DNA of 64,000 nucleotides from Variovorax gracilis (GTDB taxonomy: Bacteria; Pseudomonadota; Gammaproteobacteria; Burkholderiales; Burkholderiaceae_C). The notes below the pieces were generated by a model. That model was not told the DNA's origin and ran no database searches. It saw only the letters and a list, made by a program, of their open reading frames with translations. The stretch is taken from the NCBI RefSeq assembly GCF_030317115.1, contig NZ_JASZYF010000004.1:310001-374000 (forward strand). Reading direction: 5' to 3'. Below, piece by piece: positions 42-35,807 of this stretch. The position numbers were made by a program, and so were the translations under genes. Numbering within the stretch: position 1 is the stretch's first letter; each line of letters starts with the position of its first letter.

Positions 42-911
42 TCAGAAGTCGACCTTCTGGCCCGGCTCGGGCACCAGCACCCGCGTCGTGGAAGTGCCGA
101 GCGCCGATGTGAACTCGGCCGGCGTGCCGCGCAGCAGCGGGAATGTGCCGTAGTGCATCGGGATCGCGTAGCGCGGCTTGATCATGTCGCGCACGGCGGT
201 GGCGGCATCCTGCGGGCCCATGGTGAAGTGGCCGCCGATCGGGATCAGCACGAGGTCGGGCTTGTAGGTTTCGCCGATCAGCTTCATGTCACCGTACAGG
301 CCGGTATCGCCCATGTGCCAGATCTTGAAGCCGTTCTCCAGCTCGATGATGTAGCCCACCGGCTCGCCGCCGAAGTGCGTTTCTTCCTTGTCGGTGCCGG
401 GGTTCTTCCACACCAGTTCGGAAGAGTGTTCGGCATGGACAGCCGTGATCTTCACGCCGCCCGCCCCGAAGGGCGCGACGGTGCCGCTCTTGCCGAAGCG
501 CTGCACTTGCGCCGTCGGCAGGATGCCCAGGCTCACGATGGCAGGGCCCATGCCGCCGCCGTTGTAGACCGGCGCATTGTTCATCTTCGCGAGTGCTGGC
601 GCATCGTTGAAGTGGTCGTAGTGCGCGTGCGTCACCAGGATCAGATCGACCTTGCCCAGCGCATTGAGCTGCTTGAAGGCGGCCGGTGTCTTCGGGTTGG
701 TCGTGAGCCACGGGTCGATCACGATGACCTTGCCGCCCGGCGTGGTGATGCGCATGGTGGCCTGCCCGAGCCAGAGCACTTCGGCCTTGCCCGTGGCAAT
801 GGCCCCGGGTTGCGCCGGCTGCAGTGCCGGCGCTTGCACGGCGGTGACGGCGCACCCGGCGAGGGCAGCGGCGAGGGTGGCGGTGGAAAGCAGGAAACCA
901 ATTTTCTTCAT
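42..911 (-). CDS. Metallo-beta-lactamase-fold hydrolase, predicted lipoprotein
   Basis: Predicted 289-residue zinc-dependent hydrolase of the UlaG/UPF0173-like metallo-beta-lactamase fold. The N-terminus has a short basic stretch, a hydrophobic segment and a lipobox (LAGC, Cys20), so it is probably an envelope lipoprotein. The metal motif H95-A-H97-Y-D99-H100 is intact, and further His/Asp residues in the second half (HAEHSS, HMGDTG, PMHYG) fit the fold. The ATG at 911 is chosen because it begins the signal peptide; a reading frame continues upstream to 1136, but that part looks like shadow sequence of the neighbouring esterase. It is the last gene of a leftward set of five, 43 bases behind the esterase. 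The substrate is unknown. A lactonase or phosphoester-type role is possible, but nothing in the sequence decides it. Confidence 0.85.
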   Translation of the reverse strand: MKKIGFLLSTATLAAALAGCAVTAVQAPALQPAQPGAIATGKAEVLWLGQATMRITTPGGKVIVIDPWLTTNPKTPAAFKQLNALGKVDLILVTHAHYDHFNDAPALAKMNNAPVYNGGGMGPAIVSLGILPTAQVQRFGKSGTVAPFGAGGVKITAVHAEHSSELVWKNPGTDKEETHFGGEPVGYIIELENGFKIWHMGDTGLYGDMKLIGETYKPDLVLIPIGGHFTMGPQDAATAVRDMIKPRYAIPMHYGTFPLLRGTPAEFTSALGTSTTRVLVPEPGQKVDF

Positions 912-954
912 GCGCTTCTTTCTCTTGTTGTTGAAAAAATGAACTGGCGGAAGT

Positions 955-2616
955 TCACTGGCGGTCCAAGCCGTAGAACCTGATCTGGTAGTCGTGGAAC
1001 AGCGCGTTGCGGTTCTCGGCGCTCGTGCCGTGGTACGGCGAGCCGTTGGTCGAGCCCGTCGACTTCTCGCCGATCCACAGGTAGCTGCCGTTGCTCGCCC
1101 GATCGCTCTGGGGCCAGGTCGGCAGGCCGTCTCCATTGGGGTCGCCCGTCTTGACGAAATTGGCCCAGAACGATGACGCCTGGTCCGCGAGCTCGAAGTC
1201 GGAGGGGCTCCACGGGCGCTGGCCGGGCTCGTTGCGAAGGGAGTTGAGCACGTACCAGAGGTCCGACGAGTGCCAGGAGCCGTAGTACTCGCGGTCGCGC
1301 CCGGGCGTGGGATGGTCGAAGTAGAAGACGTAGACCTTGCTGCCGGGGTTCTGCGTCTTCAGGAGCGTGCCCGCGATCCGGTTCTGCTCCAGCGCCATGT
1401 CGGCCTGGGCCTTGAGATGCTGGCGGTAGGCATCGGTCTTCGTCGATGCCGGGTACAACTTCTCGAAGCGGTACTTCGTGTACAGCTCGTCACCCAGCAG
1501 CTTCTTCCAGTACGCCTGGAAATCGGCGACTTCCATCTGCTTTTCCGGCGCGCCATCCAGCGCCGTGCGCTCGTCGGCCACGGTGCCGACCATGACGTCC
1601 ACGCCGTTGAGTGCCCCGGGACGGAGCAGGTCGACCGAATCTTTCGTCAGGACGGCGCCGTCGATGACGGCGTACTTTCCGCTCGTCACGGCAAACATCT
1701 GCTCCGCCCGTGCATCGTCCTTGTAGAAGTCTTCCGCCGGAACGTTTCTCAAGTCATCGAGGGTCTTGCCCGGATAGAGCTTCTCGAACACCGGCGCGGC
1801 CGCGGCCGCCTTGTCGTCGAGCGTCACGAAGTTCGCCTTGTTCGGCTGCGCCATGACGGTGGGGCTGCTGTGCATGATGGCCCGCTGGAAAAGCCCCTTC
1901 GACAGGGGCGTCGACATCAGCGTGCGCACGTTGCGCGAGCCGGCCGACTGGCCGGCGATCGTCACCTTGCCGGGATCGCCGCCGAAGACGCGGATGTTCT
2001 TCTGGACCCATTTCAGCGACTCCACGCCGTCGAGGATGGCGAAGTTGCCCGCGCCGTAGTCCTTCGCGCCGGGCAGGGCCAGGAAGCCCATGATGTTCAG
2101 CCGGTAGGCCGGCATCACGACGATGATGCCCTTGGCCGCCAGCTTGGCGGCGTTGAACTCGACCTCTGAGATGTTGCCGTGCCGGTTCCCGCCGCCATGG
2201 AAGAACACCATCACCGGGAGCGATCCGCTGGCGGGCCTCTGCGGCGCCCAGACGTTCAGGTAGAGGCAGTCTTCGCTGTCCTTCGGATCCTTCGACGGAT
2301 CCCAGTAGAACTCGTTGAAATAGAAGGTGCCGGGCAGATTGGCGCTGGCGAGCTGATAGGCCCGGTTGGGCCACGCTCCGCCGTCCCGCACGCCCGGCCA
2401 CGGCACCACCGGCTGCGGCGCCTTCCAGCGACTGGGGCCCACGGGCGGCGCTGCGAAGGGCACGGCCTTGTAGAGCGTGACCCCCGCGACGTCGGTGGTC
2501 ACACCCCGGATCCTTCCGCCTTCCACCGACACGATCGTGTCGGCGGTCTGGGCCGACGCGCCCGAGGCGGCGAACCCCATGAGAAGCAGAACAAGGAACA
2601 TCGCTCTGGATTTCAT
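955..2616 (-). CDS. Secreted type B carboxylesterase
   Basis: A 553-residue alpha/beta hydrolase of the carboxylesterase type B family, which hydrolyses carboxylic esters. A cleavable signal peptide covers about residues 1-22 (ends ASAQ), so it is probably periplasmic. The family signature EDCLYLNVW is near 116-123, the oxyanion HGGG at 140-143, and the nucleophile Ser224 sits in GQSAG. The probable acid is Glu349 (ADER) and the base His449 (SWHSSD), so the triad is complete and the length is normal. The start has a GGAGAC ribosome site. It lies between an MmgE/PrpD gene and a metallo-hydrolase in one leftward set, which suggests it releases an acid from an ester before uptake by the Bug-type system; that role is inferred. 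Confidence 0.92.
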   Translation of the reverse strand: MKSRAMFLVLLLMGFAASGASAQTADTIVSVEGGRIRGVTTDVAGVTLYKAVPFAAPPVGPSRWKAPQPVVPWPGVRDGGAWPNRAYQLASANLPGTFYFNEFYWDPSKDPKDSEDCLYLNVWAPQRPASGSLPVMVFFHGGGNRHGNISEVEFNAAKLAAKGIIVVMPAYRLNIMGFLALPGAKDYGAGNFAILDGVESLKWVQKNIRVFGGDPGKVTIAGQSAGSRNVRTLMSTPLSKGLFQRAIMHSSPTVMAQPNKANFVTLDDKAAAAAPVFEKLYPGKTLDDLRNVPAEDFYKDDARAEQMFAVTSGKYAVIDGAVLTKDSVDLLRPGALNGVDVMVGTVADERTALDGAPEKQMEVADFQAYWKKLLGDELYTKYRFEKLYPASTKTDAYRQHLKAQADMALEQNRIAGTLLKTQNPGSKVYVFYFDHPTPGRDREYYGSWHSSDLWYVLNSLRNEPGQRPWSPSDFELADQASSFWANFVKTGDPNGDGLPTWPQSDRASNGSYLWIGEKSTGSTNGSPYHGTSAENRNALFHDYQIRFYGLDRQ

Positions 2617-2683
2617 CGACTTGTCTCCGGAATGAAGTGATGCCGCCGCGAATCGCCGAGCGGGCCCGGTCTGCGCGAGCCGC

Positions 2684-4054
2684 TCAGGGGCGCGCGAGGC
2701 TGGTCAACGCGCGAACGTCCGAAGCCTTGCCGAGTGACCAGCACGCAGCCAGCAGGTCGGAGGTCCGTTGCGCGCCGAGGATGCCGTCGGACAAGCCGTG
2801 GAACTTGCGCTCCAGGTCGGCGTCGCTCATGGGCCGCTGCAGCGAGCCGATCGCGTGTTCGATGAACACGTGCTCGCGGCGGCCGTCGATGAGCACCGCG
2901 GTCACGTCGGCGCTGGCTTCGTCGATGCTGTCGTCCACGGTCGCCACGACCTTTCGGCGCAGCGCGACGACGTCCGGGCGGTTCACGATGTCGTCGGCGA
3001 ATTCCTCTTCGGCCGCGCGGCCGAACACCAGGCCGGCCGCACAGCCGTGGTACACGCTGAACTTGCCTTGCAGGCCGTCGGCGGGTTCCTTCTTGCCGGT
3101 GAGTTCGAGAACCAGCGAGTGCACCTTGAGTTCGATGCGCTCGACCTGTTCCGGCTTGACGCCGCGCTCGCGCAGTTGCACGCAGGCGTCGATGCTCGGA
3201 TGAATCACGATGCCGCAGGCAAAGGGCTTGTAGCTGTTGAAGGAGATCTCGAAGCGCTCGCCCAGCTCGTCGGTGACTTCGTTCCACGCGTACTTGGTGG
3301 ACACCACCTGTGCCCAGCCGCGTGGCGCCTCGATCGCCTTCGGGCTCGCGGTGTAGCCGTGCTTCGCCATCAGCGCGGCCATCAGGCCTGCACGTGCCGC
3401 GCCGCCGGGATGGAAGGGCTTGGTCATGGTGCCGAACTGCTCGCGCAATCCGACCGGCTGCGATGCGGCGATGCCGAGCGCCATGGCGGTGCGGTCCGCA
3501 TCCAGGCCCAGCAGGCGCGCGCAGGCCGCGGCTGCGCCGAGCATGCCGGTGGTGCCCGTGATGTGCCAGCCGCGGTCGTAGTGGTCGGGATAGACCGTGT
3601 TGCCCAGGCGGCAGGCCACGTCGATGCCGAGCACCAGCGCGTCGAGCACCGCACGTCCGCTCGCACCGGTGTGCTCGGCGAGCGCGAGCACGGCCGAAGC
3701 CACCGGGCCGGCCGGATGGATGATCGTCTTCAGGTGCGTGTCGTCGAAGTCGAAGGTGTGCGAGCTGATGCCGTTGAGCATTGCCGCGTTCGCGATGTCG
3801 ACCTTCTCGGCGCGGCCGAGCACGGCAGCCTGCGGCGCGGGCTGCAACTCCTGAACGGCGGCCAGCGCGGCTTCCACGGCTTCGTGGCGTGCCGCACCGA
3901 CGGCGCAGCCCAGCCAGTTGAGGAAGGTGCGATGGGCTTCGTGGTCCACCGCGTCGCTCCAGCCGCGCGAGGCGTGGCCGGCCACGTACTCGGCCAGGAT
4001 GCGGGTGATGGGAGGGGCGTTGTGGTCTGCTGCGACCTGGGTATTGCGTGCCAT
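2684..4054 (-). CDS. MmgE/PrpD family protein
   Basis: A 456-residue member of the MmgE/PrpD family, which includes 2-methylcitrate dehydratase, cis-aconitate decarboxylase and iminodisuccinate epimerase. The length and overall layout fit the family: an all-helical N-terminal part with the segment HTFDFDDTHLKTIIHPAGP near 98-116, then a C-terminal lid domain. No signal peptide, so it is cytoplasmic. It follows the Bug-protein gene by 48 bases in the leftward set led by a GntR regulator. No methylcitrate synthase or PrpB is present nearby, so ordinary propionate metabolism is unlikely. A dehydratase or isomerase acting on the imported di- or tricarboxylic acid is the best guess. Confidence 0.9.
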   Translation of the reverse strand: MARNTQVAADHNAPPITRILAEYVAGHASRGWSDAVDHEAHRTFLNWLGCAVGAARHEAVEAALAAVQELQPAPQAAVLGRAEKVDIANAAMLNGISSHTFDFDDTHLKTIIHPAGPVASAVLALAEHTGASGRAVLDALVLGIDVACRLGNTVYPDHYDRGWHITGTTGMLGAAAACARLLGLDADRTAMALGIAASQPVGLREQFGTMTKPFHPGGAARAGLMAALMAKHGYTASPKAIEAPRGWAQVVSTKYAWNEVTDELGERFEISFNSYKPFACGIVIHPSIDACVQLRERGVKPEQVERIELKVHSLVLELTGKKEPADGLQGKFSVYHGCAAGLVFGRAAEEEFADDIVNRPDVVALRRKVVATVDDSIDEASADVTAVLIDGRREHVFIEHAIGSLQRPMSDADLERKFHGLSDGILGAQRTSDLLAACWSLGKASDVRALTSLARP

Positions 4055-4102
4055 GTGAAAGCTCTAGCTGGAAGGTTGAAAGGAAAAAGAAGGCGCGGCG
4101 GG

Positions 4103-5074
4103 CTAGCTGTCGAGTTCGATCTTGCGGTCGCGTGCGAGCTTGGTCCATCGCGCGATGTCGGCGCGGATGTAGTCGGAAAACTGCTGGGGGCTCATCGGCA
4201 TGGGCTCGACGGCCTCGACCGACAGCTTCTCGCGCAGGTCCGGCGCCTTGAGCACCGTGTTCAGCGATTCGTTGAGCTGGCGCACGACGTCGGCGGGCAT
4301 GTTGGCCGGGCCGACCACGCCGTACCACTGCATGGCGTCGAAGCCCTTGAGACCCAGCTCTTCGAGCGTCGGCACGTCCGGCGCCGCGGGATGCCGCGTG
4401 AGGCCCGTGACGGCCAGCGCACGCACGCGCCCCGACTTGAGGTGCGGCATCGCTGCGGCAAGGCCCGGGAACATCACCTGCGTCTGCCCGCCCACGAGAT
4501 CGGTGAACGCGGGCGCGATGCCGCGATAGGGCACATGCACCATGAACACCCCGACCTGCTGCTTGAACAGTTCCATCGTCAGGTGCGTGAGCGAGCCCGC
4601 GCCCGAAGAGCCGTAGCTGACCTTGCTCGGATTGGCCTTCACGTAGGCGACGAATTGCTTGAAGTCCTTGGCCGGCACATCGGCGTTGACCACCAGCACA
4701 TTGGGCGTGCCGCCGATCATGCCGATGGCCGTGAAGTCCTTGACCGCGTCATAGGGCAGGCGCCGCGTGGCCGGGGCGGTGCCGTGGGTGGCGACGTAGC
4801 CTTGCATCAGCGTGTAGCCATCCGCAGGAGCGCGCGCGGTGTTCTGCGACGCGATCACGCCGCCGCCGCCGGCCTGGTTGTCCACGACGAAGGTCTGGTT
4901 CAGCACCTTGCCCCAGCGCTCGGTCACGGTGCGGCCAATCATGTCGCTGCCACCGCCGGCGGATACCGGCACGATGTAGCGGATGGGCTTGTTCGGGTAG
5001 CCCTGGGCGTGGGCCAGTCCGTGCAGCCCGGCGAGCGTCGGGGGCAGCGCGAGGACGAAGGCGCGTCGTTTCAT
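4103..5074 (-). CDS. Bug/TctC family tripartite tricarboxylate transporter binding protein
   Basis: A 323-residue periplasmic solute-binding protein of the Bug/TctC family. Signal peptide about residues 1-23 (ends AHAQ), then the family start GYPNKPIRYIVP and the ligand-loop pattern SAGGGSDMIGR. These proteins usually bind carboxylates and deliver them to a TctAB permease, although Bordetella and its relatives encode many orphan members. No TctAB lies in this operon; the only TctBA pair in the window is at 32786-34802. It sits 39 bases behind the GntR gene, and the ligand is probably the substrate of the MmgE/PrpD and CoA-transferase enzymes (inferred). Confidence 0.95.
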   Translation of the reverse strand: MKRRAFVLALPPTLAGLHGLAHAQGYPNKPIRYIVPVSAGGGSDMIGRTVTERWGKVLNQTFVVDNQAGGGGVIASQNTARAPADGYTLMQGYVATHGTAPATRRLPYDAVKDFTAIGMIGGTPNVLVVNADVPAKDFKQFVAYVKANPSKVSYGSSGAGSLTHLTMELFKQQVGVFMVHVPYRGIAPAFTDLVGGQTQVMFPGLAAAMPHLKSGRVRALAVTGLTRHPAAPDVPTLEELGLKGFDAMQWYGVVGPANMPADVVRQLNESLNTVLKAPDLREKLSVEAVEPMPMSPQQFSDYIRADIARWTKLARDRKIELDS

Positions 5075-5113
5075 GGTCTTGTCTCCTGGTTGTCTTGAAG
5101 GTGGGGCCGGTGG

Positions 5114-5830
5114 TCAGCCCGTCAGGCCCGAAAGCCGGATGTAGGCATCGCCGACATGGCGTGCCATGAGCCTTTCGCAGCGGGCGACATCGCCGTCGCG
5201 AAGCGCGCGGGCGATCGCCACGTGCTCGGCGATCGAGGCGCGCATGCCCATGTCCTGCGAAAGATTCTTCAGTCGCGAGAGGTGCAGCTTCTGCACTACT
5301 CCGCGGTAGGTGTCCGCCAGCGCGTGGTTGCCGGCGGCTTCGACGATGGCCCAGTGGAAGTTCAGGTTCTCGCGGTAGTAGCGCTGCACGTCGTGCGCGG
5401 CGAAGGCGGCGTTCATGTCGGCGATGGAGGCATCGAGCGCATCGGCCAGCGCGATGCGTGCCTCGTCGCCCAACCGTGCCGCGCGGCGGCCGGCAAAGCC
5501 GTCGAGCAGCCCGCGCATTTCGTAGAGGTCCCGCAGCTCTTCGGCATCCGGCTCGCGCACGAACACGCCGGCGTGCTTGCGGGCCACGACCAGGCCCGTG
5601 CTCTCCAGTTCTCGCAGCGCTTCGCGCACCGGCACCCGTGAGACCCCCAGGCGCGCGGCGATGTCCGGCTCGTTGATGCGCTGGCCCGTCGGCAGGTCGC
5701 CGCGCAGGATCATGGCCAGCATGTCGTCGCGGACCAGCTTGGCGAGGGGAATGTCGCGCACGGTCGAGAGCTGATCGGAGGGGAGGTCGGAGAGCCAGGG
5801 CAGCATGTGGAAGTCCGTTGTGGTCGGCAT
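5114..5830 (-). CDS. GntR family regulator, FadR/FCD type
   Basis: A 238-residue transcription factor: winged helix-turn-helix at about residues 25-90 (motif RLGVSRVPVREAL), then an all-helical FCD ligand-binding domain with conserved His and Asp/Asn positions typical of metal-dependent acid sensors. It is the first gene of the leftward set and divergent from the CoA-transferase gene. A perfect palindrome, TCGTATACGA at 5832-5841, touches its start codon, so autoregulation is likely. An in-frame ATG at 5806 (residue 9) is an alternative start that would leave the palindrome 26-35 bases upstream; neither start has a strong ribosome site. Confidence 0.93.
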   Translation of the reverse strand: MPTTTDFHMLPWLSDLPSDQLSTVRDIPLAKLVRDDMLAMILRGDLPTGQRINEPDIAARLGVSRVPVREALRELESTGLVVARKHAGVFVREPDAEELRDLYEMRGLLDGFAGRRAARLGDEARIALADALDASIADMNAAFAAHDVQRYYRENLNFHWAIVEAAGNHALADTYRGVVQKLHLSRLKNLSQDMGMRASIAEHVAIARALRDGDVARCERLMARHVGDAYIRLSGLTG

Positions 5831-5831
5831 A

Positions 5832-5841
5832 TCGTATACGA
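5832..5841. promoter_or_regulatory. Probable GntR operator, perfect palindrome
   Basis: TCGTATACGA is a perfect 10-bp palindrome directly upstream of the GntR start codon. FadR-type GntR regulators commonly bind short palindromes with a GT-N-AC core, and this fits (seen: palindrome; known: family preference; inferred: this regulator binds here). Confidence 0.6.
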
Positions 5842-5871
5842 CAGGCTCACAAAATGTCCACGCTTTTCATA

Positions 5872-5887
5872 AAAGTGTTGACACTTT
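5872..5887. promoter_or_regulatory. Inverted repeat over the -35 element of the CoA-transferase promoter
   Basis: AAAGTGT and ACACTTT form a perfect 7-bp inverted repeat with a 2-base spacer. The repeat contains TTGACA, the likely -35 box of the rightward promoter, so a bound protein would block RNA polymerase. It differs in sequence from the palindrome at 5832-5841 and may serve the second GntR regulator encoded at 9976. Confidence 0.55.
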
Positions 5888-5906
5888 GTTGATGGGTGCA
5901 AACAAT
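5878..5906 (+). promoter_or_regulatory. Probable sigma70 promoter for the rightward catabolic operon
   Basis: A consensus TTGACA at 5878-5883 is followed 17 bases later by AACAAT at 5901-5906 (4 of 6 matches to TATAAT). Transcription would start near 5913, about 29 bases before the CoA-transferase ATG at 5942. Confidence 0.55.
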
Positions 5907-5941
5907 CTAGCCCATCCAAAGGCCCTCCGAGTTCATCCCGA

Positions 5942-7132
5942 ATGCCCCATCTGCCTGCCTCATCCGCCCTGCAACGCTTCCGCGTGGTCGACCTGACCCA
6001 GGTCCGTGCCGGCCCGACCGCTTGCCGCCAACTCGCTGACTGGGGTGCCGACGTCATCCAGGTTCAAATGCCCGAACACATGCGCGGCGACGACACCCTG
6101 GGCGGACAGGACGGCTCCGACTACCAGTACACGCATCGCAACAAGCGCTCGATCACGCTCAACCTCAAGGAAGACGAAGGCATTGCCACCTTGAAGCGCC
6201 TGATCGCCGGCGCCGACGTGGTGGTCGAGAACTTCCGGCCGGACGTGAAGTTCCGCCTGGGAATCGACTACGAGACCTTGGCAGCGGACAACCCGCGGCT
6301 GGTCTACGCCAGCATCTCCGGCTTCGGCCAGTCCGGTCCGCTCGCCACGCGCCCCGGCTTCGATCAGATCGCGCAGGGCATGGGCGGCCTGATGTCCGTC
6401 ACCGGCCTGCCGGGCGACGGCCCGGTGCGCGTCGGCATTCCGATCGCCGACCTGTGCGCCGGCATCTTCGCGGCGCAAGGCATCCTCGTCGCCCTCCTGG
6501 AGCGTGAAGCGTCCGGCAAGGGCCAGTGGCTGCACACGTCGTTGCTGGAGTCGATGGTCTACATGATGGATTTCCAGACCTCCCGCTACCTGATCGACGG
6601 CGAAGTCGGGCACCAGGCGGGAAACTTCCACCCGACCAGCATCCCGACCGGTGTCTACAAGGCCCGCGACGGCTACCTGAACATCGCGGTATTCGGCTCC
6701 AAGATCTGGGAGCGCTTCTGCAACATCCTCGGCGCGCCAGAATGGATCACGGACGAGCGCTACCACGACAAGCCCTCGCGCTCGGTCAACCGCGATGCGC
6801 TCAACGCCGAGATCAACCGGCGTCTCGCCGAGCACGACCGCAGTCACTGGATCGAGCAGTTCAACGCCGGCGGCGTGGCCTGCGGCCTCATCAGCGACAT
6901 GCGCGAAGTCTTCGCGGAGCCGCAGATCGAGCACCTCGGCATGGTCAAGGACGTCGTGTCGGCCCGCCTGGGCCCGCAACGGCTGGTCGGCCAGCCGATG
7001 CAACTGGAGCGCACGCCCAGCACCATTGCCCGCGCGGCCCCGCGCCGTGGCGAACACACGGAGGAAGTCCTGCTCGAACTGGGCATCGGCGCGGACGACC
7101 TCGACCGCATGAAAGCGACCGGAGTTTTTTGA
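5942..7132 (+). CDS. CaiB/BaiF family (class III) CoA-transferase
   Basis: A 396-residue cytoplasmic enzyme of the family III CoA-transferases, which move CoA between carboxylic acids. Family features are the N-terminal VVDLTQVRAGP (the CaiB DLT/RAGP-type start), HRNKRSITLNLK near 65-76, VVENFRP near 94-100 and the presumed catalytic Asp170 in IADLCAG. Length is normal. It is the first gene of the rightward operon, 1 base ahead of the crotonase-like gene. It most likely activates the imported acid, using succinyl-CoA, acetyl-CoA or a product thioester as donor; the donor and acceptor cannot be read from the sequence. Confidence 0.95.
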   Translation: MPHLPASSALQRFRVVDLTQVRAGPTACRQLADWGADVIQVQMPEHMRGDDTLGGQDGSDYQYTHRNKRSITLNLKEDEGIATLKRLIAGADVVVENFRPDVKFRLGIDYETLAADNPRLVYASISGFGQSGPLATRPGFDQIAQGMGGLMSVTGLPGDGPVRVGIPIADLCAGIFAAQGILVALLEREASGKGQWLHTSLLESMVYMMDFQTSRYLIDGEVGHQAGNFHPTSIPTGVYKARDGYLNIAVFGSKIWERFCNILGAPEWITDERYHDKPSRSVNRDALNAEINRRLAEHDRSHWIEQFNAGGVACGLISDMREVFAEPQIEHLGMVKDVVSARLGPQRLVGQPMQLERTPSTIARAAPRRGEHTEEVLLELGIGADDLDRMKATGVF

Positions 7133-7133
7133 C

Positions 7134-7943
7134 ATGTCGAATCCCACCTACGAATCCACCACGGAGCGGGTCCAGACCTGGCTCGACGGCAGCACGCTGC
7201 ACATCCGTTTCAACAATCCGGCAAGGCACAACGCGCTGTCGGTCGACATGTGGGAAGCGGTGCCGCCGCTGCTGCACGTCGCGCAGGGCGACGACCGGGT
7301 GCGCCTCGTCGTGTTCTCGGGCGCCGGCGAGAAGGCTTTCGTCTCGGGCGCCGATATCTCGCAGTTCGAGGACATGCGCGCCGCGCGCGAGGCCGTGACC
7401 CGCTACGAGGCAATGGCCGAGGAAGCGCTGATGAGCATTCACGACTTCCCCAAGCCGACGCTCGCCTGCATTCGCGGCTACTGCATCGGCGGAGGCGTGA
7501 ACGTGGCGATCAGTTGCGACATCCGCATTGCATCCGACGACTCGGTGTTCTCGATTCCGGCCGCTCGCTTGGGGCTGGGCTACCGCTATTCCGCGATGAA
7601 GAACCTGGTCGACCTGATCGGGCCCGGCGCAGCCAAGGACCTCTTCTTCACCGCCCGCCGCATCGACGCCGCGGAGGCGAAGGCGCTGGGCCTCGTCACG
7701 CGCGTCTCCACGGTGGCGGGGCTCGACGCGCTGCTGGCCGAGTACACGAACGCGCTGGCAGACAACGCCCCACTGACCGTGGCGGCGGGCAAGGCCATCA
7801 CCCGCGAAATCCTCAAGCCCTCGCCGGAGCTGGACCAGGCCCTGTGCGCGTCCCTGATCCGCGGCTGCTTCGAGAGCGCCGACTACACCGAAGGCCGGAC
7901 CGCCTTCATGCAGAAGCGCAAGCCGGTCTTCACGGGCCGATAG
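7134..7943 (+). CDS. Crotonase superfamily protein, enoyl-CoA hydratase-like, lacking the two usual glutamates
   Basis: A 269-residue protein with the crotonase fold: CoA-binding and oxyanion segments SGADISQF (71-78) and CIRGYCIGGGVNVAISCD (112-129). In classical hydratases a Glu follows the GGGC segment and a second Glu lies in the FGQPE segment. Here these sites read GGGVNV (Asn123) and FSIPAARLGLG (Ala), so both catalytic glutamates appear absent. A simple hydratase reaction is therefore doubtful; isomerase, decarboxylase, thioesterase or ring-cleavage chemistry is possible. It starts 1 base after the CoA-transferase stop and is clearly co-transcribed, so its substrate is probably the CoA ester made by that enzyme. 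Confidence 0.92.
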   Translation: MSNPTYESTTERVQTWLDGSTLHIRFNNPARHNALSVDMWEAVPPLLHVAQGDDRVRLVVFSGAGEKAFVSGADISQFEDMRAAREAVTRYEAMAEEALMSIHDFPKPTLACIRGYCIGGGVNVAISCDIRIASDDSVFSIPAARLGLGYRYSAMKNLVDLIGPGAAKDLFFTARRIDAAEAKALGLVTRVSTVAGLDALLAEYTNALADNAPLTVAAGKAITREILKPSPELDQALCASLIRGCFESADYTEGRTAFMQKRKPVFTGR

Positions 7944-7966
7944 CGATGGAACAACGAGGAGATCGA

Positions 7967-8956
7967 ATGATGCAGTCGTACTGGATGCAGATGACCGACG
8001 AGTCGACCGTGCTGGAGATGCGCGAGACGGCACCGCCGCAGCCCGGCCCGCAGCAGTTGCTGTTGCGCATGCACGCCGCGTCGCTCAATCGCGGCGAATT
8101 CGTGGCGGGGCATGGCCTGCACGGCCAGCCCGGCAGTTGGAAGGCGATTGGCGGAGAGGGTGCCGGCGAGGTCGTTGCAGTCGGGGCCGGGGTCACGCGC
8201 TTCAAGGCGGGCGACCTGGTCATGGGGCGGTGCTCCGGCGCCTTCTCCGAATACGCGCTGATGGAGGAGATCGAGGCGATGGCCAAGCCCGCCGGTCTGT
8301 CGTGGGAAGAGGCCGCCAGCGTCGCGCTGACCTTCCTCGTGTCGTACGACATGCTGGTGCTGCAGGGGCGGCTCCGGCCCGGCGAGTGGGTGCTGATCAA
8401 CGGCGTGTCGTCCGGCGTGGGCGTCGCATCGCTCCAGTTGGCGAAGGTGCTCGGCGCCAAGGTGATCGGCACCTCGGGTTCGGCCGACAAGCTGGCGCGG
8501 CTGAACACCCTGGGCCTGGATCTCGCCATCTGCACGCGCGCTGCGGACTTCGGCGATGCGGTGATGCGGGCGACGGACCAGCACGGTGCCGACCTCGTCA
8601 TCAACACGGTCGGAGGAACGGTGTTCGCGGAAGACATCCGTGCGATGGCTTTCGAAGGCCGGCTCGCCACGGTGGGCTACGTCGACGGCGTGGTGCATGC
8701 CGAGCTGGACCTCGCGGCCCTGCACGCCAAGCGGCTCACCGTGTTCGGCGTGTCGAACAAGCTGCGCAGCAAGGCACAGCGCGCGGCAGCGATTCCGGGT
8801 TTCGTGGCGGACGTGTTGCCGCACATCGCGGCCGGCCGCATCCGGCCGCAGATCGACAGGGTCTACGACTTTGCGCAACTGAAGGAAGCCAAGGCGACCA
8901 TGGAAAGCGGCGGCCATGTCGGAAAGATCGTGCTGCGCATGCCGGCCGCGGCCTGA
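7967..8956 (+). CDS. Zinc-free medium-chain dehydrogenase, NAD(P)H:quinone oxidoreductase type
   Basis: A 329-residue MDR-superfamily oxidoreductase with an N-terminal GroES-like domain and a Rossmann domain carrying the nucleotide-binding stretch INGVSSGVGVASLQLAK near 140-156. It lacks the structural zinc cysteine cluster and resembles the quinone oxidoreductase or enoyl reductase branch. The ATG at 7967 is preferred because GAGGAG at 7956-7961 is ideally spaced before it; an ATG at 7946 is in frame but lacks such a site. It lies 23 bases behind the crotonase gene and 25 bases before a Bug gene. It probably reduces an unsaturated acyl or ketone intermediate in the same pathway (inferred). 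Confidence 0.9.
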   Translation: MMQSYWMQMTDESTVLEMRETAPPQPGPQQLLLRMHAASLNRGEFVAGHGLHGQPGSWKAIGGEGAGEVVAVGAGVTRFKAGDLVMGRCSGAFSEYALMEEIEAMAKPAGLSWEEAASVALTFLVSYDMLVLQGRLRPGEWVLINGVSSGVGVASLQLAKVLGAKVIGTSGSADKLARLNTLGLDLAICTRAADFGDAVMRATDQHGADLVINTVGGTVFAEDIRAMAFEGRLATVGYVDGVVHAELDLAALHAKRLTVFGVSNKLRSKAQRAAAIPGFVADVLPHIAAGRIRPQIDRVYDFAQLKEAKATMESGGHVGKIVLRMPAAA

Positions 8957-8981
8957 TCCCAAGAACAACAGGAGACAAGAC

Positions 8982-9953
8982 ATGAACATCAACAAGATCG
9001 TCCTCGCAGTGGGCCTGTGCGCGCTCGGAAGCGTTGCGTGGTCGCAGCCCGGGGACTATCCGAGCAAGCCGATTCGCCTCGTTATCGGCTTTGCGCCGGG
9101 TGGCGCGGCCGACTACGTGGCACGCGCCATGAGCGAAGCCTTCGGCAAGGCGCTCGGGCAGCCGGTAGTGGTCGACAACAAGCCGGGCAACGGGTCGAGC
9201 ATCGCGGCGGAACTGGTCGCCAAGGCGCCGGCCGATGGCTACACGCTGCTGATCGCGAGTCCGAGCAGCATCTCCGTCAACCCGGCGCTCAATCCCAAGC
9301 TCTCGTACACGGCGCGCGACCTCGCGCCCGTGACGAAGATGACGACTTCGCCGCTGGTGCTGGCAGTCAACCCTTCCACCGGCATCCGCTCGGTCGCCGA
9401 CCTCATCGCGGCGGCGAAGAAGGACCCCGGCAAGCTCAACTACTCGACCTCGGGCAATGGCTCGGCCCCGCACCTGGGTGCCGCGCTGTTCAGCCAGGTC
9501 ACCGGCGCGGAGATGACGCACATCCCCTATCGCGGCGGCAGCCTGGCGATCCAGTCGGTGATGGCGGGCGATACCCAGCTCACCTTCGGCACCTCGCCCT
9601 CGGTGCTGCCCATGGCCAGCGGCGGGCGCCTGCTCGCGCTGGCCGTGAGCACGCGGGAGCGTTCGCCGCTGGTGCCCAACCTGCCGGGCATGAAGGAGGC
9701 GGGGCTGCCCGACTACAACCTCGAGTTCTGGTACGGCATGTTCGTGCCCGCCGGCACGCCGCCGGCCATCGTCCAGAAGATCTACAACGCGACGGTCGCC
9801 GCGATGCAGCAGCCTTCGGTCAAGGCCTCGCTGGCGCGCGATGGGACCGAGGTGTCCATCTCGTCATCGCCCGAGCAGTTCAGCAGCTTCCTGGCCGAGG
9901 ACGGAAAATTCTGGGTCAAGCTGGTGAAGAGCGCGAACGTCAAGGTCGAGTGA
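8982..9953 (+). CDS. Bug/TctC family solute-binding protein (second of the island)
   Basis: A 323-residue periplasmic binding protein. The signal peptide ends near residue 21 (AWSQ) and is followed by DYPSKPIRLVIGFAPGGAADYVAR, the typical Bug start. AGGAGACA precedes the ATG at 8982 and fixes the start. The same island carries another Bug protein at 4103-5074 on the opposite strand, so two receptors may serve one pathway, either for different substrates or for different affinities. No TctAB permease gene is adjacent. Confidence 0.95.
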   Translation: MNINKIVLAVGLCALGSVAWSQPGDYPSKPIRLVIGFAPGGAADYVARAMSEAFGKALGQPVVVDNKPGNGSSIAAELVAKAPADGYTLLIASPSSISVNPALNPKLSYTARDLAPVTKMTTSPLVLAVNPSTGIRSVADLIAAAKKDPGKLNYSTSGNGSAPHLGAALFSQVTGAEMTHIPYRGGSLAIQSVMAGDTQLTFGTSPSVLPMASGGRLLALAVSTRERSPLVPNLPGMKEAGLPDYNLEFWYGMFVPAGTPPAIVQKIYNATVAAMQQPSVKASLARDGTEVSISSSPEQFSSFLAEDGKFWVKLVKSANVKVE

Positions 9954-9975
9954 GGGTCTGAAGTTAGGATTGCGC

Positions 9976-10659
9976 ATGCCTCCTCCTTCTTCCAGCACCC
10001 GTGGTTCCGCCCTGTCGGAGGGCATCGTCAGCGAGCTCAAGCAACTCATCTACACCGGCGAGTTCAAGCCGGGCGAGCGGCTCAACGAAGCGGCCCTGGC
10101 CCTGCGCATGGGCACCAGCCGTGGTCCGATCCGTGAGGCGATCAAGGTGCTGGCGGGGCTCGGCATCGTCACGGCTGTCGCCAATCGCGGCGTGTATGTG
10201 CGGCAGTTGTCGCTTCGCGAGATGGTCGAGATCTACGAGTTGCGCGCGCTCATGTTCGGCTATGCGGCAGAGCGCGCCTGCGAGCACCTGACCGAAGAGA
10301 CCAAGAAGCAGATGGAAGACCTGCTGTCCGCGATGGACGCCGCCTGCGAAGCGGAAGACGGCACGCTCTACTACGAGCTGAACCTGCAGTTCCACGCCCT
10401 GATCCTCACGCTCTCGAACAATCGCCGCGCCCACCAGGCCTACGACGATTACGTGAAGGAGTTGCACCTGGTGCGGCGCAAGTACTTCAACGCGCCGGGC
10501 AACATGCGCCGATCGAACGTGGAGCATCGTGCGATCTTCGATGCGATCGCGGCATCGAACCGCGCTCGTGCGCGCGCGGCAGCCGAGCGCCATGTGCTGG
10601 CCGGCCGAGAGCGGCTGCTGGCGAACTTCGGCGACCCGCTCTCGCTGCAGGGCGCCTGA
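9976..10659 (+). CDS. GntR family regulator, FCD type (second of the island)
   Basis: A 227-residue regulator with an N-terminal winged helix (RMGTSRGPIREAI near 44-56) and a C-terminal helical FCD sensor domain. The ATG at 9976 is chosen because AGGA at 9966-9969 is 6 bases upstream; the in-frame TTG at 9970 is too close to that site. It is the last gene of the rightward operon, 22 bases after the Bug gene, so its own expression follows the pathway genes. It probably regulates the promoter at 5878-5906, possibly through the 5872-5887 repeat, which differs from the site beside the first GntR gene. Confidence 0.92.
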   Translation: MPPPSSSTRGSALSEGIVSELKQLIYTGEFKPGERLNEAALALRMGTSRGPIREAIKVLAGLGIVTAVANRGVYVRQLSLREMVEIYELRALMFGYAAERACEHLTEETKKQMEDLLSAMDAACEAEDGTLYYELNLQFHALILTLSNNRRAHQAYDDYVKELHLVRRKYFNAPGNMRRSNVEHRAIFDAIAASNRARARAAAERHVLAGRERLLANFGDPLSLQGA

Positions 10660-10714: not shown

Positions 10715-11497
10715 TCAGGCCCTTCGCTTGAACATGGCCGAGCCACCGCTGGCCAGGGCGACGTCATAGGCGGTCGCAAGCAGGGCAGGGGCGAGTGCGA
10801 GCATGCGTTCCTCCGTCAGCCGCACCGATGGACCTGCAATGGTGATCACGCCGATGGCCGCGCCGTTGCCGCTGCGCACCGGCGCGGCCATCGCCGCCAT
10901 GGCGGGCGCAAACACCTCGTTGATCATGCTGAAGCCGCGCTTGCGTGCCGCCCGGATGTAGGCCAGCAGGGCCTTGACCGTGGTCGGCGCCTTGGGGCCG
11001 AAGTCTTCCGGTTTGCCGAAGCCCTGCTTGGCGACCAGCTCCAGGGCTTGTTCGTCCGTCATGGTCGAGAACCACGCATGGCCCGCGGAGCTGCATGACA
11101 GGTTGACGGAAAGGCCCATGTCCGGGTCGTAGCGCAAGCCGTGCGTCGCGCCCTGCGCCTTGGCGACGAAGGTCAGCTCGTCGCCGTCCACGACCGCCAG
11201 CCGCACGAGTTCGCCCGACTCGGCGGCCAGCCGGTCGAGCAGCGGCTGCGCGACATCGACGATGCCGCTGTTGCTCAGGAAGCTGAGTCCCAGCGACACC
11301 AGCTTCATGGTCAGGGTGTAGTCGCCGTGGCGCTGGTCCTGCCGGACATAGCCGTTGCGCACCAGCTCGGCCAGAAGCCGATGGGTGGCGCTCAGTGGCA
11401 TTTCGAGGTCGGCGGCCAAGGCCGACAGTGCACTCCCGCCAGGGTGCCGTGCCAGGTGCTCCATCAGTTTGAAGCTGCGTTCGAGTATTGAGCTCAT
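10715..11497 (-). CDS. IclR family transcriptional regulator
   Basis: A 260-residue regulator: N-terminal winged helix-turn-helix (about 1-65, LSATHRLLAELVRNGYV) and a C-terminal IclR effector domain with the CSSAGHAWFSTM segment and a GPSVRLT end. The ATG at 11497 is preferred over one at 11527 because it begins directly with the family start MSSILERSFKLMEHL. It is divergent from the TRAP transporter operon and very likely controls it, since an IclR-type operator lies between them (11604-11618). The effector is probably the aromatic or alicyclic acid taken up by the transporter. The 55-base gap to the convergent GntR gene at 10659 shows no clear terminator. Confidence 0.93.
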   Translation of the reverse strand: MSSILERSFKLMEHLARHPGGSALSALAADLEMPLSATHRLLAELVRNGYVRQDQRHGDYTLTMKLVSLGLSFLSNSGIVDVAQPLLDRLAAESGELVRLAVVDGDELTFVAKAQGATHGLRYDPDMGLSVNLSCSSAGHAWFSTMTDEQALELVAKQGFGKPEDFGPKAPTTVKALLAYIRAARKRGFSMINEVFAPAMAAMAAPVRSGNGAAIGVITIAGPSVRLTEERMLALAPALLATAYDVALASGGSAMFKRRA

Positions 11498-11575
11498 GGA
11501 ATCTCTTGGGGACCGGTGGACCGGCATGCGTCGCGACGACGTTGCCGGATCGGAGCATGACCCTAATCCGGTTCG

Positions 11576-11604
11576 TTGGCATTTTGTAAAGTGTTTTCAC
11601 TAAT
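11576..11604 (+). promoter_or_regulatory. Probable promoter of the TRAP transporter operon
   Basis: TTGGCA at 11576-11581 and ACTAAT at 11599-11604 are 17 bases apart and match sigma70 boxes at 5 of 6 and 4 of 6 positions. The start point would fall near 11611, inside the IclR-type palindrome, and leave a leader of about 110 bases before the first gene. Confidence 0.45.
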
Positions 11605-11618
11605 GGAAAGTTTTTCCA
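11604..11618. promoter_or_regulatory. IclR-type operator
   Basis: TGGAAAGTTTTTCCA has perfect 6-bp arms (TGGAAA/TTTCCA) and a 3-base spacer. This agrees with the TGGAAA-N3-TTTCCA pattern described for IclR of enteric bacteria. It lies between the IclR gene and the TRAP operon, overlapping the likely transcription start. A related half-pattern, GTGTTTTCACTAA, lies just upstream at 11591-11603. Confidence 0.65.
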
Positions 11619-11719
11619 CTAAACGAATATCATCGCGCCGTTTTCCGGCGGCTCGTCCTTTCTCTTCTTCGTCCGAGGACGTGCTGCTGTTTGTCGACCT
11701 TCCACATATGGAGACTGTC

Positions 11720-12724
11720 TTGAGACTTCTTTTCCGCACCCTCGCAGTGGCCGGCCTGACCCTCGCCATGGCCGCACCGGTCCTCGCACAGGAGCACGAG
11801 CGCGTCATCCGTTTCGGCCACCTCAACAACGCCGACCACCCGGTGAGCTTCGGCGTCAAGCGCTTCGCCGAGCTGCTGGCGGCCAAGAGCGGCGGCAAGA
11901 TGAAGGTGCAGGAATTCCCGGCCTCCCAGCTCGGCAACGAGATGCAGCAGCAGTCCGCGCTGCAGGGCGGCGTGCAGCAGATGTCCGCGCCGGCCACGAC
12001 CTCGCTGGCCGGTATCGTCAAGGAGTTCGGCCTGGTCGACTTCCCCTTTGCCGTCGCCAACTTCGCGCAGGCGGATGCGCTGCTCGACGGCCCGCTCGGC
12101 CAGACGCTGATCTCCAAGCTGCCTGAAAAGGGCCTGGTCGCGCTGGGTTACTGGGACCTCGGATTCCGCAACGTCACGAACAGCAAGCGGCCGATCGGCA
12201 AGCCCGAGGACCTGGAGGGCCTCAAGATCCGTGTGATCCCGAACCCTGTGTTCCTCGAGACTTTCAAGGCCTTCAAGGCCAACCCGGTGCCGATGCCTTT
12301 CGCGGAGCTCTACGGTGCGCTCGAGGCAAAGGCCGTGGACGGCCAGGAAAACCCGTTCTCGGTGATCCTGTCGAACAAGTTCTTCGAAGTGCAGAAGTAC
12401 CTGAGCGCGACCAACCACGTCTATGCGGCCAACATCGTGCTCGTCAGCAAGAAGTTCTGGGACGGTCTCTCGCCCACCGAGCAGAAGTGGATGCGCGAGG
12501 CCGCCGATGAAGCGCGTGGCTACCAGCGCCAGGTGAGCCGTGCGGCGGCGCAGCGTGCCGTGGGCGACCTGCAGGCCAAGGGCATGCAGTTCAACGAAGT
12601 CACGCCGGCCGAGCAGGCCCGCATGCGCCAGATCGCGAAGCCCGTCATCGACAAGTTCGCGGCCAGCTACGACCCGGCGGTCGTCAAGCTCTACAACGAC
12701 GAGCTGGCCCGCATCCGCAAGTAA
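11720..12724 (+). CDS. TRAP transporter substrate-binding protein, DctP family (first copy)
   Basis: A 334-residue periplasmic receptor with signal peptide 1-24 (ends VLAQ) and the DctP fold; conserved segments include YWDLGFRNVTNSKRP and KAVDGQENP. A TTG start at 11720 is preferred: GGAGAC lies 4 bases upstream, and the resulting protein is the same length (334) as its paralogue at 15150, with the same 24-residue signal peptide. An in-frame ATG at 11708 has no ribosome site. It is the first gene of the operon facing the IclR regulator. Two complete receptors flanking one permease pair is unusual. Confidence 0.93.
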   Translation: MRLLFRTLAVAGLTLAMAAPVLAQEHERVIRFGHLNNADHPVSFGVKRFAELLAAKSGGKMKVQEFPASQLGNEMQQQSALQGGVQQMSAPATTSLAGIVKEFGLVDFPFAVANFAQADALLDGPLGQTLISKLPEKGLVALGYWDLGFRNVTNSKRPIGKPEDLEGLKIRVIPNPVFLETFKAFKANPVPMPFAELYGALEAKAVDGQENPFSVILSNKFFEVQKYLSATNHVYAANIVLVSKKFWDGLSPTEQKWMREAADEARGYQRQVSRAAAQRAVGDLQAKGMQFNEVTPAEQARMRQIAKPVIDKFAASYDPAVVKLYNDELARIRK

Positions 12725-12747
12725 AGAGCCGCACCGGCAAGCACCCC

Positions 12748-13191
12748 ATGAAGATCCTCGTATTGCACGGCCCCAACCTGAACCTGTTCGGGCGCCGGGA
12801 GCCCCACATCTACGGCAAGACCACTCTGGCCGAGATCAACGCGCGCCTCGAAAAGCTGGCGCTTGACCTCAACGTGACGCTGGAGATCATCCAGTCGAAC
12901 CACGAGGGAGACCTCATTGACTTCCTGCACAAGAACATCGACGAGGCGCAGGGTGCGCTGGTCAACCCGGCGGGATTGACGCAACATGGCGTCCCGCTGC
13001 ACGACGCGATCAAGGCCATGCCCTTCCCGACGCTGGAAGTCCACATGTCCAACATCGCGGCGCGCGAAACGTGGCGTGCGCACTCGATCATCTCGCCGGC
13101 CGTGAAGGGCACCATCCAGGGCCTGGGACCGCAGTCCTACCTGGCTGCGCTCCGCGCGCTGGTCGAGATCCAGCGCGACGCCGGAGCCTGA
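12748..13191 (+). CDS. aroQ: Type II 3-dehydroquinate dehydratase, divergent
   Basis: A 147-residue protein of the type II dehydroquinase family, which interconverts 3-dehydroquinate and 3-dehydroshikimate. Key residues are present: Asn10 (GPNLN), Arg17 in GRREP, Tyr22 in YGKT, Asn73 in NPAGL, Glu97 and His99 in EVHMSN, and Arg110. The usual THTS substrate loop is changed to TQHG (78-81). It lies inside a TRAP transporter operon, 23 bases after the first receptor gene, which points to catabolism of imported quinate, dehydroquinate or a related acid rather than biosynthesis. The altered loop leaves open a different substrate. Confidence 0.88.
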   Translation: MKILVLHGPNLNLFGRREPHIYGKTTLAEINARLEKLALDLNVTLEIIQSNHEGDLIDFLHKNIDEAQGALVNPAGLTQHGVPLHDAIKAMPFPTLEVHMSNIAARETWRAHSIISPAVKGTIQGLGPQSYLAALRALVEIQRDAGA

Positions 13192-13246
13192 TGCGCCCGC
13201 AAGCGGTCTGAGCTCGTGGCCCGGGATTCACAGAGAGACAAACAAC

Positions 13247-13837
13247 ATGAATCGATGGATTGACCGATGCTGCACCGGCATCGAAGCAGTGATCGCCTTC
13301 TTCCTCGCGGTGATGGTGGTGCTGGTGTTCGGCAACGTGGTGCTGCGCTACGGCTTCAACTCGGGCATCACCGTGTCCGAGGAAGTCTCGCGCTGGCTCT
13401 TCATCTGGGTGACCTTCCTTGGCGCCGTCGTGGCCCTCAAGGAGCACGGCCACCTCGGAGTCGACATGGTGGTGCAGAGGCTGCCTCCCGCGGGCAAGAA
13501 GATCTGTCTTGCGCTCGGCCACCTCGTCATGCTGTACATCGTCTGGCTGCTCTTCCAGGGTAGCGTGGCCCAGGCCCGCATCAACTGGGATGTCACGGCG
13601 CCCGTCACCGGGGCGTCGATGGCGGTGGTCTATTCGTCGGGCATCGTCTTCTCGGTGCTGGCCGCGTTCATCCTGGCGCTCGACCTCTACCGGCTGCTGA
13701 CCGGGCAGATTGCCGAGAAGGACCTCGTCATGGTCCAGGAGTCGGAAGAGGCCGTGCAACTGCAGCAGATCCTCGGCTCGGCATCGGAGCCCGAGAAAGC
13801 GTCCGCCCCTGAATTCGCGCACGGGAGCAAGAAATGA
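13247..13837 (+). CDS. TRAP transporter small permease subunit, DctQ type
   Basis: A 196-residue membrane protein with four predicted helices (about 10-32, 50-66, 85-107, 128-150) and the family pattern EEVSRWLFIWVTFLGAVVALKEHGHLGVD near 44-72. The C-terminal 40 residues are a charged tail. The last codons overlap the large permease start by the ATGA at 13834-13837, so translation is coupled. It forms the membrane complex with the DctM subunit. Confidence 0.94.
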   Translation: MNRWIDRCCTGIEAVIAFFLAVMVVLVFGNVVLRYGFNSGITVSEEVSRWLFIWVTFLGAVVALKEHGHLGVDMVVQRLPPAGKKICLALGHLVMLYIVWLLFQGSVAQARINWDVTAPVTGASMAVVYSSGIVFSVLAAFILALDLYRLLTGQIAEKDLVMVQESEEAVQLQQILGSASEPEKASAPEFAHGSKK

Positions 13838-15114: not shown

Positions 15115-15149
15115 GCTGATTTCCCAAAAACTCTAGAGGAGACTCGTCC

Positions 15150-35796: not shown

Positions 35797-35807
35797 AAGA
35801 AATGCTC

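Follow-up and report, generated by a model that had tools for sequence, protein, structure and literature searches.

A two-module gene island of Variovorax gracilis related to class III CoA-transferase and MmgE/PrpD dicarboxylate clusters: conservation, predicted operators and a candidate substrate class

In this study, we used a comparative approach to examine a ten-gene island at positions 42-10659 of a 64,000-nucleotide stretch of the genome of the soil bacterium Variovorax gracilis (RefSeq assembly GCF_030317115.1, contig NZ_JASZYF010000004.1, positions 310,001 to 374,000; hereafter the window), which lies on contig 39 of a 7.78-Mb genome. The genes are arranged divergently around a short promoter region, and the island consists of two modules that stand side by side and are probably regulated separately, CaiB-crotonase-MDR-Bug2 with GntR2 (module A) and GntR1-Bug1-MmgE (module B). 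Its best reading is a variant of the dicarboxylate clusters that pair a class III CoA-transferase with an MmgE/PrpD protein; its parts are of known kinds, their combination has no assigned pathway, and it probably serves the uptake and breakdown of an unusual diacid. We put at about 45% the probability that the two modules are functionally linked and serve one substrate class, a 1,4-dicarboxylate (that is, a succinate backbone) substituted at C2; we infer this substrate, as well as the reactions of the crotonase and the MDR enzyme. The features of the island are as follows.

42..911, minus strand, accessory: metallo-hydrolase (MBL) of the UPF0173 type with a lipoprotein signal; Pfam PF12706/PF13483, NCBIfam NF001911 over cut-off
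955..2616, minus strand, accessory: type-B carboxylesterase (EST) with a signal-like N terminus; PF00135
2684..4054, minus strand, module B: MmgE, MmgE/PrpD family, predicted two-base epimerase of a C2-substituted succinate; PF03972/PF19305
4103..5074, minus strand, module B: Bug1, TctC-type periplasmic receptor; PF03401
5114..5806, minus strand, module B: GntR1, FCD-type regulator; PF00392 and PF07729
5832..5841, no strand: TCGTATACGA, predicted GntR1 operator
5873..5886, no strand: AAGTGTTGACACTT, predicted GntR2 operator, with a TTGACA -35-like box inside it and its end 55 nt before CaiB
5942..7132, plus strand, module A: CaiB, class III CoA-transferase; PF02515
7134..7943, plus strand, module A: Glu-less crotonase of the NF004781/PRK06127 subfamily; NF004781 at 397.7 bits, cut-off 291
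7967..8956, plus strand, module A: MDR oxidoreductase of the quinone oxidoreductase kind; PF00107, PF13602, PF08240
8982..9953, plus strand, module A: Bug2, TctC-type periplasmic receptor; PF03401
9970..10659, plus strand, module A: GntR2, FCD-type regulator; PF00392 and PF07729

Pfam and NCBIfam matches confirm the ten open frames and the families that a previous, sequence-only reading of this DNA had assigned to them, and there is indeed no permease between 42 and 10659. The likely starts differ slightly from those of the longest frames for the metallo-hydrolase (911), GntR1 (5806), MDR (7967) and Bug2 (8982); the first of these was read, together with the lipobox, from MKKIGFLLSTATLAAALAGC, and GntR1, whose frame is open to 5830, more likely starts at 5806 because the operator abuts 5830.

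A scan of 84,980 species genomes with the crotonase returned 230 relatives, of which we kept the best 80 loci and compared their neighborhoods within 7.5 kb of the crotonase (the duplicates L003-L007 and the distant L012-L015 were excluded from the relative-locus comparison). Flank genes were called with a home-made codon-usage gene caller, and their labels rest on this caller and on BLAST identity rather than on standard annotation, with representative flank genes verified by Pfam or NCBIfam. The closest named loci, 96% identical in the crotonase, belong to Variovorax sp., and the named hosts among the 80 loci include Variovorax, Hydrogenophaga, Ramlibacter, Polaromonas, Limnohabitans, Advenella and Polynucleobacter. 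Two loci titled Akkermansia muciniphila (L067, a metagenome-assembled genome) and Pantoea sp. (L041) carry a typical Burkholderiales island, and these genomes are probably mislabelled.

Of the 80 loci, 72 have exactly the order CaiB-crotonase-MDR-Bug2, as do 50 of the 52 with at least 6.5 kb on both sides; the eight exceptions (L035, L038, L042, L044, L051, L052, L060 and L083) have a contig end or a missing gene. CaiB lies directly 5' of the crotonase in 75 loci, MDR directly 3' of it in 79, and the run crotonase-MDR-Bug2 is present in 74, while GntR2 was found in 44 loci, 34 of which have it as the divergent neighbor of CaiB. Within the same 7.5 kb of the crotonase we also found class II aldolase/adducin genes (24 loci) and a second group of 2-hydroxyacid dehydrogenases, distinct from the one seen beside MmgE (20 loci), both counts being inflated by closely related Limnohabitans loci, as well as an isopropylmalate/tartrate-dehydrogenase-like gene (6 loci). 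Three loci from another family (L096, L098 and L099; crotonase 65-74% identical) carry CaiB-crotonase pairs near citrate-lyase-beta-like, dihydrodipicolinate-synthase-like, RraA-like, IlvD-like and Ldh_2 genes. These neighbors point to hydroxylated or branched dicarboxylates and to no single compound.

The two halves of the island co-occur well beyond V. gracilis, often without being neighbors; a lack of co-occurrence, which would have counted against the sequence-only reading, is thus not what we observed. Among 150 genomes of its family, 11 carry a crotonase orthologue (at least 72% identical) and 25 an MmgE orthologue (at least 66%), and all 11 of the former hold both (Fisher p = 3e-10, a value that ignores phylogeny), with the modules on different contigs in five of these 11. 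Among 399 genomes of the order, the counts are 7 and 21, with both in 7 of 7 (p = 4e-10, again ignoring phylogeny); 13 own-family genomes were removed from the order set, of which 12 are listed, a difference with no effect on the result, and outside the island's own family four of four crotonase genomes have MmgE. In a third set, 20 of 24 crotonase genomes contain MmgE at 65% identity or more, 9 of them near the crotonase and 11 on another contig or beyond the 10-kb flank. The identity cut-offs were chosen after viewing the identity gap. They dropped from the family set crotonases at 44-53% (G069, G090, G098 and second copies) and MmgE proteins at 52-55% (G055, G116 and G139), partial MmgE copies in G048, G083 and G109 being retained, and from the order set crotonases below 65% (58 of 65 genomes) and MmgE proteins below 63% (26 of 47). 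Per genome, the top 17 crotonase and 11 MmgE candidates were scored in the family set and the top 6 and 4 in the order set; absence of an orthologue means that there was no close match among the top-ranked candidates of that genome, and the crotonase and MmgE searches were taken as covering the same genome draws within each of these two sets.

Where the modules are close, their arrangement varies. In 20 of the 80 loci, MmgE and the crotonase are no more than 7.5 kb apart; depending on the lineage, MmgE is then divergent from CaiB, upstream of it on the same strand, or downstream of it, and Bug1 adjoins MmgE in 18 of these 20. Of 35 other MmgE orthologues, 30 have Bug1 next to them, 14 have a D-2-hydroxyacid dehydrogenase as a neighbor, and 13 have GntR1 nearby (L146, L147 and L170-L172, at 53-59% identity, were omitted, and places in G040, G048, G083, G109, G360, G484, G509 and G553 fall outside this sample). 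Eight loci (L022, L029, L030, L032, L034, L036, L044 and L081) show a layout of their own: a LysR gene is divergent from Bug1-MmgE, and module A comes next, on the same strand. These loci have no GntR2 gene, the upstream regions tested (all except that of L044) do not contain its predicted operator, and CaiB was not found in L044. Small genomes of 1.7-2.3 Mb (L160-L162 and L155, including Polynucleobacter sinensis) carry a compact Bug1-MmgE-D-2-hydroxyacid dehydrogenase unit, and the order-wide search gave no crotonase match in the genomes of L160-L162.

The proposed substrate class follows from the MmgE protein. Its nearest solved relative is iminodisuccinate (IDS) epimerase (2hp3, 157 bits; low overall similarity), and seven of its residues (H99, D102, H113, Y159, H164, K212 and K276) are invariant in 39 of 39 orthologues, one Polynucleobacter MmgE (32% identical) having been aligned and not counted. 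In the itaconate/methylsuccinate cluster, according to PMC12290011, the MmgE/PrpD protein acts as an (S)-(R)-methylsuccinate isomerase in the service of a CoA-transferase that is stereoselective; the authors propose for it a two-base mechanism like that of IDS epimerase, and a 1,4-dicarboxylate backbone for every known substrate of the family. At all seven positions the island protein agrees with methylsuccinate isomerase and IDS epimerase, the second-base Tyr included; D102 is Asp as in IDS epimerase, where methylsuccinate isomerase has Glu. In the roles assigned there, mapped through the candidate isomerase of the V. gracilis genome (whose numbering is one higher than in PMC12290011), H113 and Y159 are the bases and H99, D102, H164, K212 and K276 bind the carboxylates. 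Since the seven two-base residues are kept, MmgE is best read as a predicted epimerase of a C2-substituted succinate rather than as a dehydratase, and dehydration, one of the steps suggested in the sequence-only reading, is not supported for it. IDS epimerase itself (2hp3/2hp0) shares all catalytic residues with MmgE, Asp included, and differs in its low overall similarity and in that no iminodisuccinate lyase was seen among the island genes.

Of the enzymes in module A, CaiB has an aspartate, D170, that aligns with D169 of E. coli Frc and with the Asp of the candidate Ict of the same genome, and the nearest solved relatives of MDR are the quinone oxidoreductases 4dup and 2oby. The crotonase stands apart from E. 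coli PaaF, which has Glu at both hydratase positions, in that these are replaced by N123 and A143 in 86 of 86 sequences; 15 more distant relatives also have no Glu at either position. The enzyme had been called a modified crotonase, correctly, and we rejected enoyl-CoA hydratase as its function, both catalytic glutamates being replaced. A confident structure model (mean pLDDT 89.8) has 4olq and 4k2n as its nearest folds, titled as a putative hydratase/isomerase and an enoyl-CoA hydratase/carnithine racemase; these are named only as putative or by family, and the model therefore does not decide the reaction. The uncharacterised crotonases 4olq and 4wcz also have no Glu at the two hydratase positions and share with the island enzyme a tyrosine, Y150, to which we return below. 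From these residues we cautiously infer an enolate reaction other than hydration.

The promoter region between the modules contains two predicted operators, with GntR1 predicted to bind TCGTATACGA and GntR2 to bind AAGTGTTGACACTT. The latter occurs exactly in 33 of 70 CaiB upstream regions and with at most one mismatch in 41, compared with 0 of 1,400 mononucleotide shuffles within two mismatches, and it tracks its regulator, being present in 38 of 44 loci with GntR2 versus 2 of 25 without, both of the latter on short contigs (p = 9e-11). When the whole intergenic region was searched, four of the six misses were recovered at one mismatch or less and one at two, and L039 stayed at three. In the V. 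gracilis genome, the copy at the CaiB promoter is the only one within one mismatch, and in eight whole genomes scanned, exact copies occur solely at the CaiB promoter (five genomes, one copy each). Three one-mismatch copies lie elsewhere, in G097 and G110, and G130 has none; the reversed control pattern gave two matches (G130 and G110), and these three copies away from the island are therefore at chance level. For GntR1, TCGTATACGA at 5832-5841 is the sole match to TNGTATACNA in the window (0.03 expected), and among 13 GntR1 genes beside MmgE, 12 have a GTATAC core in the roughly 130 nt upstream, versus 9 of 509 other genes; in the thirteenth (L163), it lies on the other side, between GntR1 and MmgE. 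A second copy of TCGTATACGA in the genome, at C18:75605, is inside a called coding frame. The spacing of the two operators in the window, 41 bp, recurs in each of the six other loci in which GntR1 neighbors CaiB. Each GntR protein probably represses its own module until its ligand is present.

Taken together, the preferred reading would work as follows. Bug1 and Bug2 would capture the acid in the periplasm and pass it to a TctAB permease encoded elsewhere. As predicted from its residues, MmgE would racemise or epimerise the free acid at C2 via an enolate, with H113 and Y159 as bases, so that both stereoisomers reach a stereoselective CaiB. By analogy with the methylsuccinate precedent, CaiB (D170) would then charge one stereoisomer from succinyl-CoA. 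The Glu-less crotonase may use its oxyanion hole for a non-hydration enolate reaction, such as decarboxylation, C-C cleavage or C-X elimination, and MDR would reduce the enoyl or keto product. GntR1 and GntR2 are predicted to act on their own operators in the shared divergent promoter, with the GntR2 site covering the -35-like box. In Variovorax, the esterase, the lipoprotein metallo-hydrolase and a family-3 binding protein, all located behind module B, may widen the range to esters. The earlier proposal of one catabolic system for a carboxylic acid, with Bug uptake and CoA activation, is supported in outline; the present scheme departs from it on the esterase as first step, on dehydration by MmgE and on the weight given to the missing permease.

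Several observations weigh against this reading. An MmgE orthologue is missing in 4 of the 24 crotonase genomes of the third set (G545, G551, G552 and G557), and 14 of the 25 family genomes with an MmgE orthologue have no crotonase orthologue; the dependence is therefore one-sided, and module B must work with other partners too. The p-values ignore phylogeny, the genome sets partly overlap and only top candidates were scored. Of 13 crotonase genomes searched, 12, that of V. gracilis included, contain nothing close to the D-2-hydroxyacid dehydrogenase that accompanies MmgE in other lineages (best matches 36-42% in these 12, versus 55% in G068), which weakens the hint of a 2-hydroxy acid for the island. 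Finally, CaiB is 35.1% identical to the CoA-transferase, and MmgE 33% identical (146 of 437 aligned residues) to the MmgE protein, of a separate gene cluster at C17 of the same genome that resembles the itaconate/methylsuccinate cluster. At 33-35% identity, the methylsuccinate precedent holds by analogy only, and the island is a parallel system, not a copy.

Some of these points would fit a different explanation, in which the modules serve different, unrelated substrates, recur in metabolically rich Burkholderiales and are adjacent by accident. Their receptors (Bug1 and Bug2, 33% identical), regulators (GntR1 and GntR2, 36%) and predicted operators are separate, and MmgE without crotonase in 14 of 25 family genomes, together with p-values uncorrected for shared descent, speaks for it. 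It has to face the one-sided dependence seen in 11 of 11 and 7 of 7 genomes and, outside the family, in 4 of 4, as well as the 20 of 80 loci in which the modules lie within 7.5 kb of each other in several arrangements. We consider this explanation unlikely.

The Y150 residue raises another possibility, namely that the crotonase is a 2-substituted malonyl-CoA decarboxylase and that the substrate of module A is a malonate derivative instead of a succinate. Y150 is invariant in 86 of 86 sequences and in the 15 distant relatives, and it aligns with a Tyr of the methylmalonyl-CoA decarboxylase ScpB (YgfG) of E. coli, which also has the crotonase fold. This residue of ScpB is Tyr140, which is catalytic together with His66, and ScpB structures rank 26th among the solved matches. 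Against this possibility, the His66 position is Ala in all 101 crotonases compared, and none of them has the Glu that ScpB retains at the first hydratase position (Asn in 92); further, the MmgE residues of module B bind a 1,4-dicarboxylate, which malonate is not. We thus rejected an ScpB-type decarboxylase on residues, the Tyr being present and the His66 position being Ala, and regard a malonate derivative as rather improbable. The literature on arylmalonate decarboxylase (PMC4996985, as far as its available text goes) gave no lead.

Ester hydrolysis as the first step had been proposed from the order of the genes. In this scheme, a secreted esterase and the metallo-hydrolase would free the acid outside the cytoplasm, followed by import, dehydration by MmgE, CoA activation and reduction. 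The esterase has a signal-like N terminus, the metallo-hydrolase has a lipobox, and both genes run in the same direction behind MmgE; further, type-B esterase-like genes (28-29% identical) lie about 3.5 kb from MmgE in L136 and beside a CaiB-crotonase pair in L014. Fumonisin esterase cuts tricarballylate esters. The nearest solved relative of the island esterase is the fumonisin B1 esterase 8s6d (205.6 bits), which again would suit this scheme. The distribution of the two genes argues against it: the esterase occurs in 2 of the 80 named loci, and the metallo-hydrolase occupies the same place in 4, all of them Variovorax (87-97% identical). Genes of the metallo-hydrolase kind lie within 7.5 kb in six loci, but the one in L017, L029 and L030 is a paralogue (64-66% identical) at another place. 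We therefore rejected both as core parts of the island and, the active site of MmgE being of the epimerase type, find ester hydrolysis improbable as a general first step. The left arm has a sixth gene, for an orphan family-3 solute-binding lipoprotein, which adjoins the metallo-hydrolase gene at base 42 and lies outside the window (window -764 to 42; L001:13236-14042), so the island may not end at 42; in 13 of the 80 loci, a relative of this gene stands no more than 7.5 kb from the crotonase.

A more daring version of the scheme, and a decidedly long shot, is that module A forms an undescribed closed CoA cycle that strips C2 substituents from succinates. CaiB would transfer CoA from succinyl-CoA to X-succinate, the crotonase would form fumaryl-CoA or a substituted enoyl-CoA by eliminating HX or by removing the substituent in another way, and MDR reduction would yield succinyl-CoA, priming the next round. 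If true, such a cycle, together with the epimerase, would allow both stereoisomers of diverse succinates to be processed without acyl-CoA dehydrogenase, hydratase or lyase.

The known system closest in composition is the itaconate/methylsuccinate cluster of Cupriavidus necator and Pseudomonas aeruginosa (ict, ich, mcd, msi and ccl; PMC12290011), with which the island shares a class III CoA-transferase with the catalytic Asp and an MmgE/PrpD protein with the same two-base residues. Where that cluster has Mcd, Ich and Ccl, the island (42-10659) has instead the Glu-less crotonase, MDR, two Bug receptors and two GntR regulators. The V. gracilis genome has, at G000:C17 (L130:8617-14129), a separate run of five genes with the families and order of the itaconate/methylsuccinate cluster, encoding an HpcH/HpaI lyase, an MmgE/PrpD protein, a CoA-transferase III, an acyl-CoA dehydrogenase and a weak FAS1-like dehydratase; the names ccl, msi, ict, mcd and ich were assigned to them from gene order and Pfam families. 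The Ccl model NF038242 has seven matches in this genome, none over cut-off, and no C17 gene gets a name from an NCBIfam model above cut-off. It is thus very improbable that the island itself belongs with the itaconate/methylsuccinate degradation clusters known from Pseudomonas and Cupriavidus, and we rejected this assignment: the joint presence of a class III CoA-transferase and MmgE/PrpD in one island, as described in PMC12290011, is outweighed by the lack in the island of acyl-CoA dehydrogenase, itaconyl-CoA hydratase and citramalyl-CoA lyase, and by the separate C17 cluster, to which the island proteins are 33-35% identical.

Two other systems invite comparison. The 3,3'-thiodipropionate system of Variovorax paradoxus TBEA6 (PMC8102459) shares the genus, TctC receptors and a CoA-transferase with the island and differs in its other enzymes (Fox, a dioxygenase and a desulfinase); the main text of that paper mentions no crotonase, enoyl-CoA or MmgE. 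In the expansion of tripartite tricarboxylate receptors reported for Rhodoplanes (PMC5994714), receptors are likewise in large excess over TctA, whereas in the island the two receptors belong to two modules under separate regulators. Among the solved structures and the literature searched, which covers few subscription papers, we found no close experimentally studied homologue. In this literature, no paper pairs MmgE, CaiB and enoyl-CoA hydratase with tripartite tricarboxylate, and tripartite tricarboxylate, CoA-transferase and enoyl-CoA hydratase were not found together for Burkholderiales.

The island holds no complete tripartite tricarboxylate transporter, TctA and TctB being absent from it, and the sequence-only reading had given weight to its two "orphan" receptors. 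That weight is not borne out by the host genome, which has at least 150 TctC (Bug) receptors (150 scored of 182 candidates) and five TctA matches, four strong and one weak. At about thirty receptors to one TctA, the lack of a permease in the island means little and orphan receptors are the rule, and we rejected the missing permease as a signal. As for the shared use of a distant TctAB suggested earlier, the eight genomes scanned gave no sign of a TctAB regulated through the predicted GntR2 operator, whose exact copies stand only at the CaiB promoter. Elsewhere in the same window, one of the five TctA genes (33285-34802), a TctC receptor (35893-36864) and a gamma-glutamyltranspeptidase lie on one strand at 33285-38606. 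A TRAP block (DctP, DctQ, DctM, DctP; 11636-16154) begins roughly 1 kb beyond the right-hand end of the island, within a larger block (10715-16154) that comprises an IclR regulator, two DctP receptors, a class II dehydroquinase and the DctQ-DctM TRAP permease. A similar block lies near the crotonase core in only 4 of 80 loci (with the dehydroquinase called in three, and upstream of CaiB in L040), and we rejected it as part of the island and keep it as a side observation. Two neighboring permeases of the aspartate-alanine-exchanger type with TrkA_C domains lie on the same strand at 19415-22909.

In Burkholderiales, no substrate is known for many of the Bug receptors, nor for many of the CaiB, crotonase and MmgE/PrpD genes, and the island offers a tractable case among them, with a conserved four-gene core, a partner that is kept even at a distance and two exact predicted operators. 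The epimerase prediction, based on active-site residues, narrows the search for the substrate to a short list, and the island highlights a crotonase subfamily without the hydratase glutamates.

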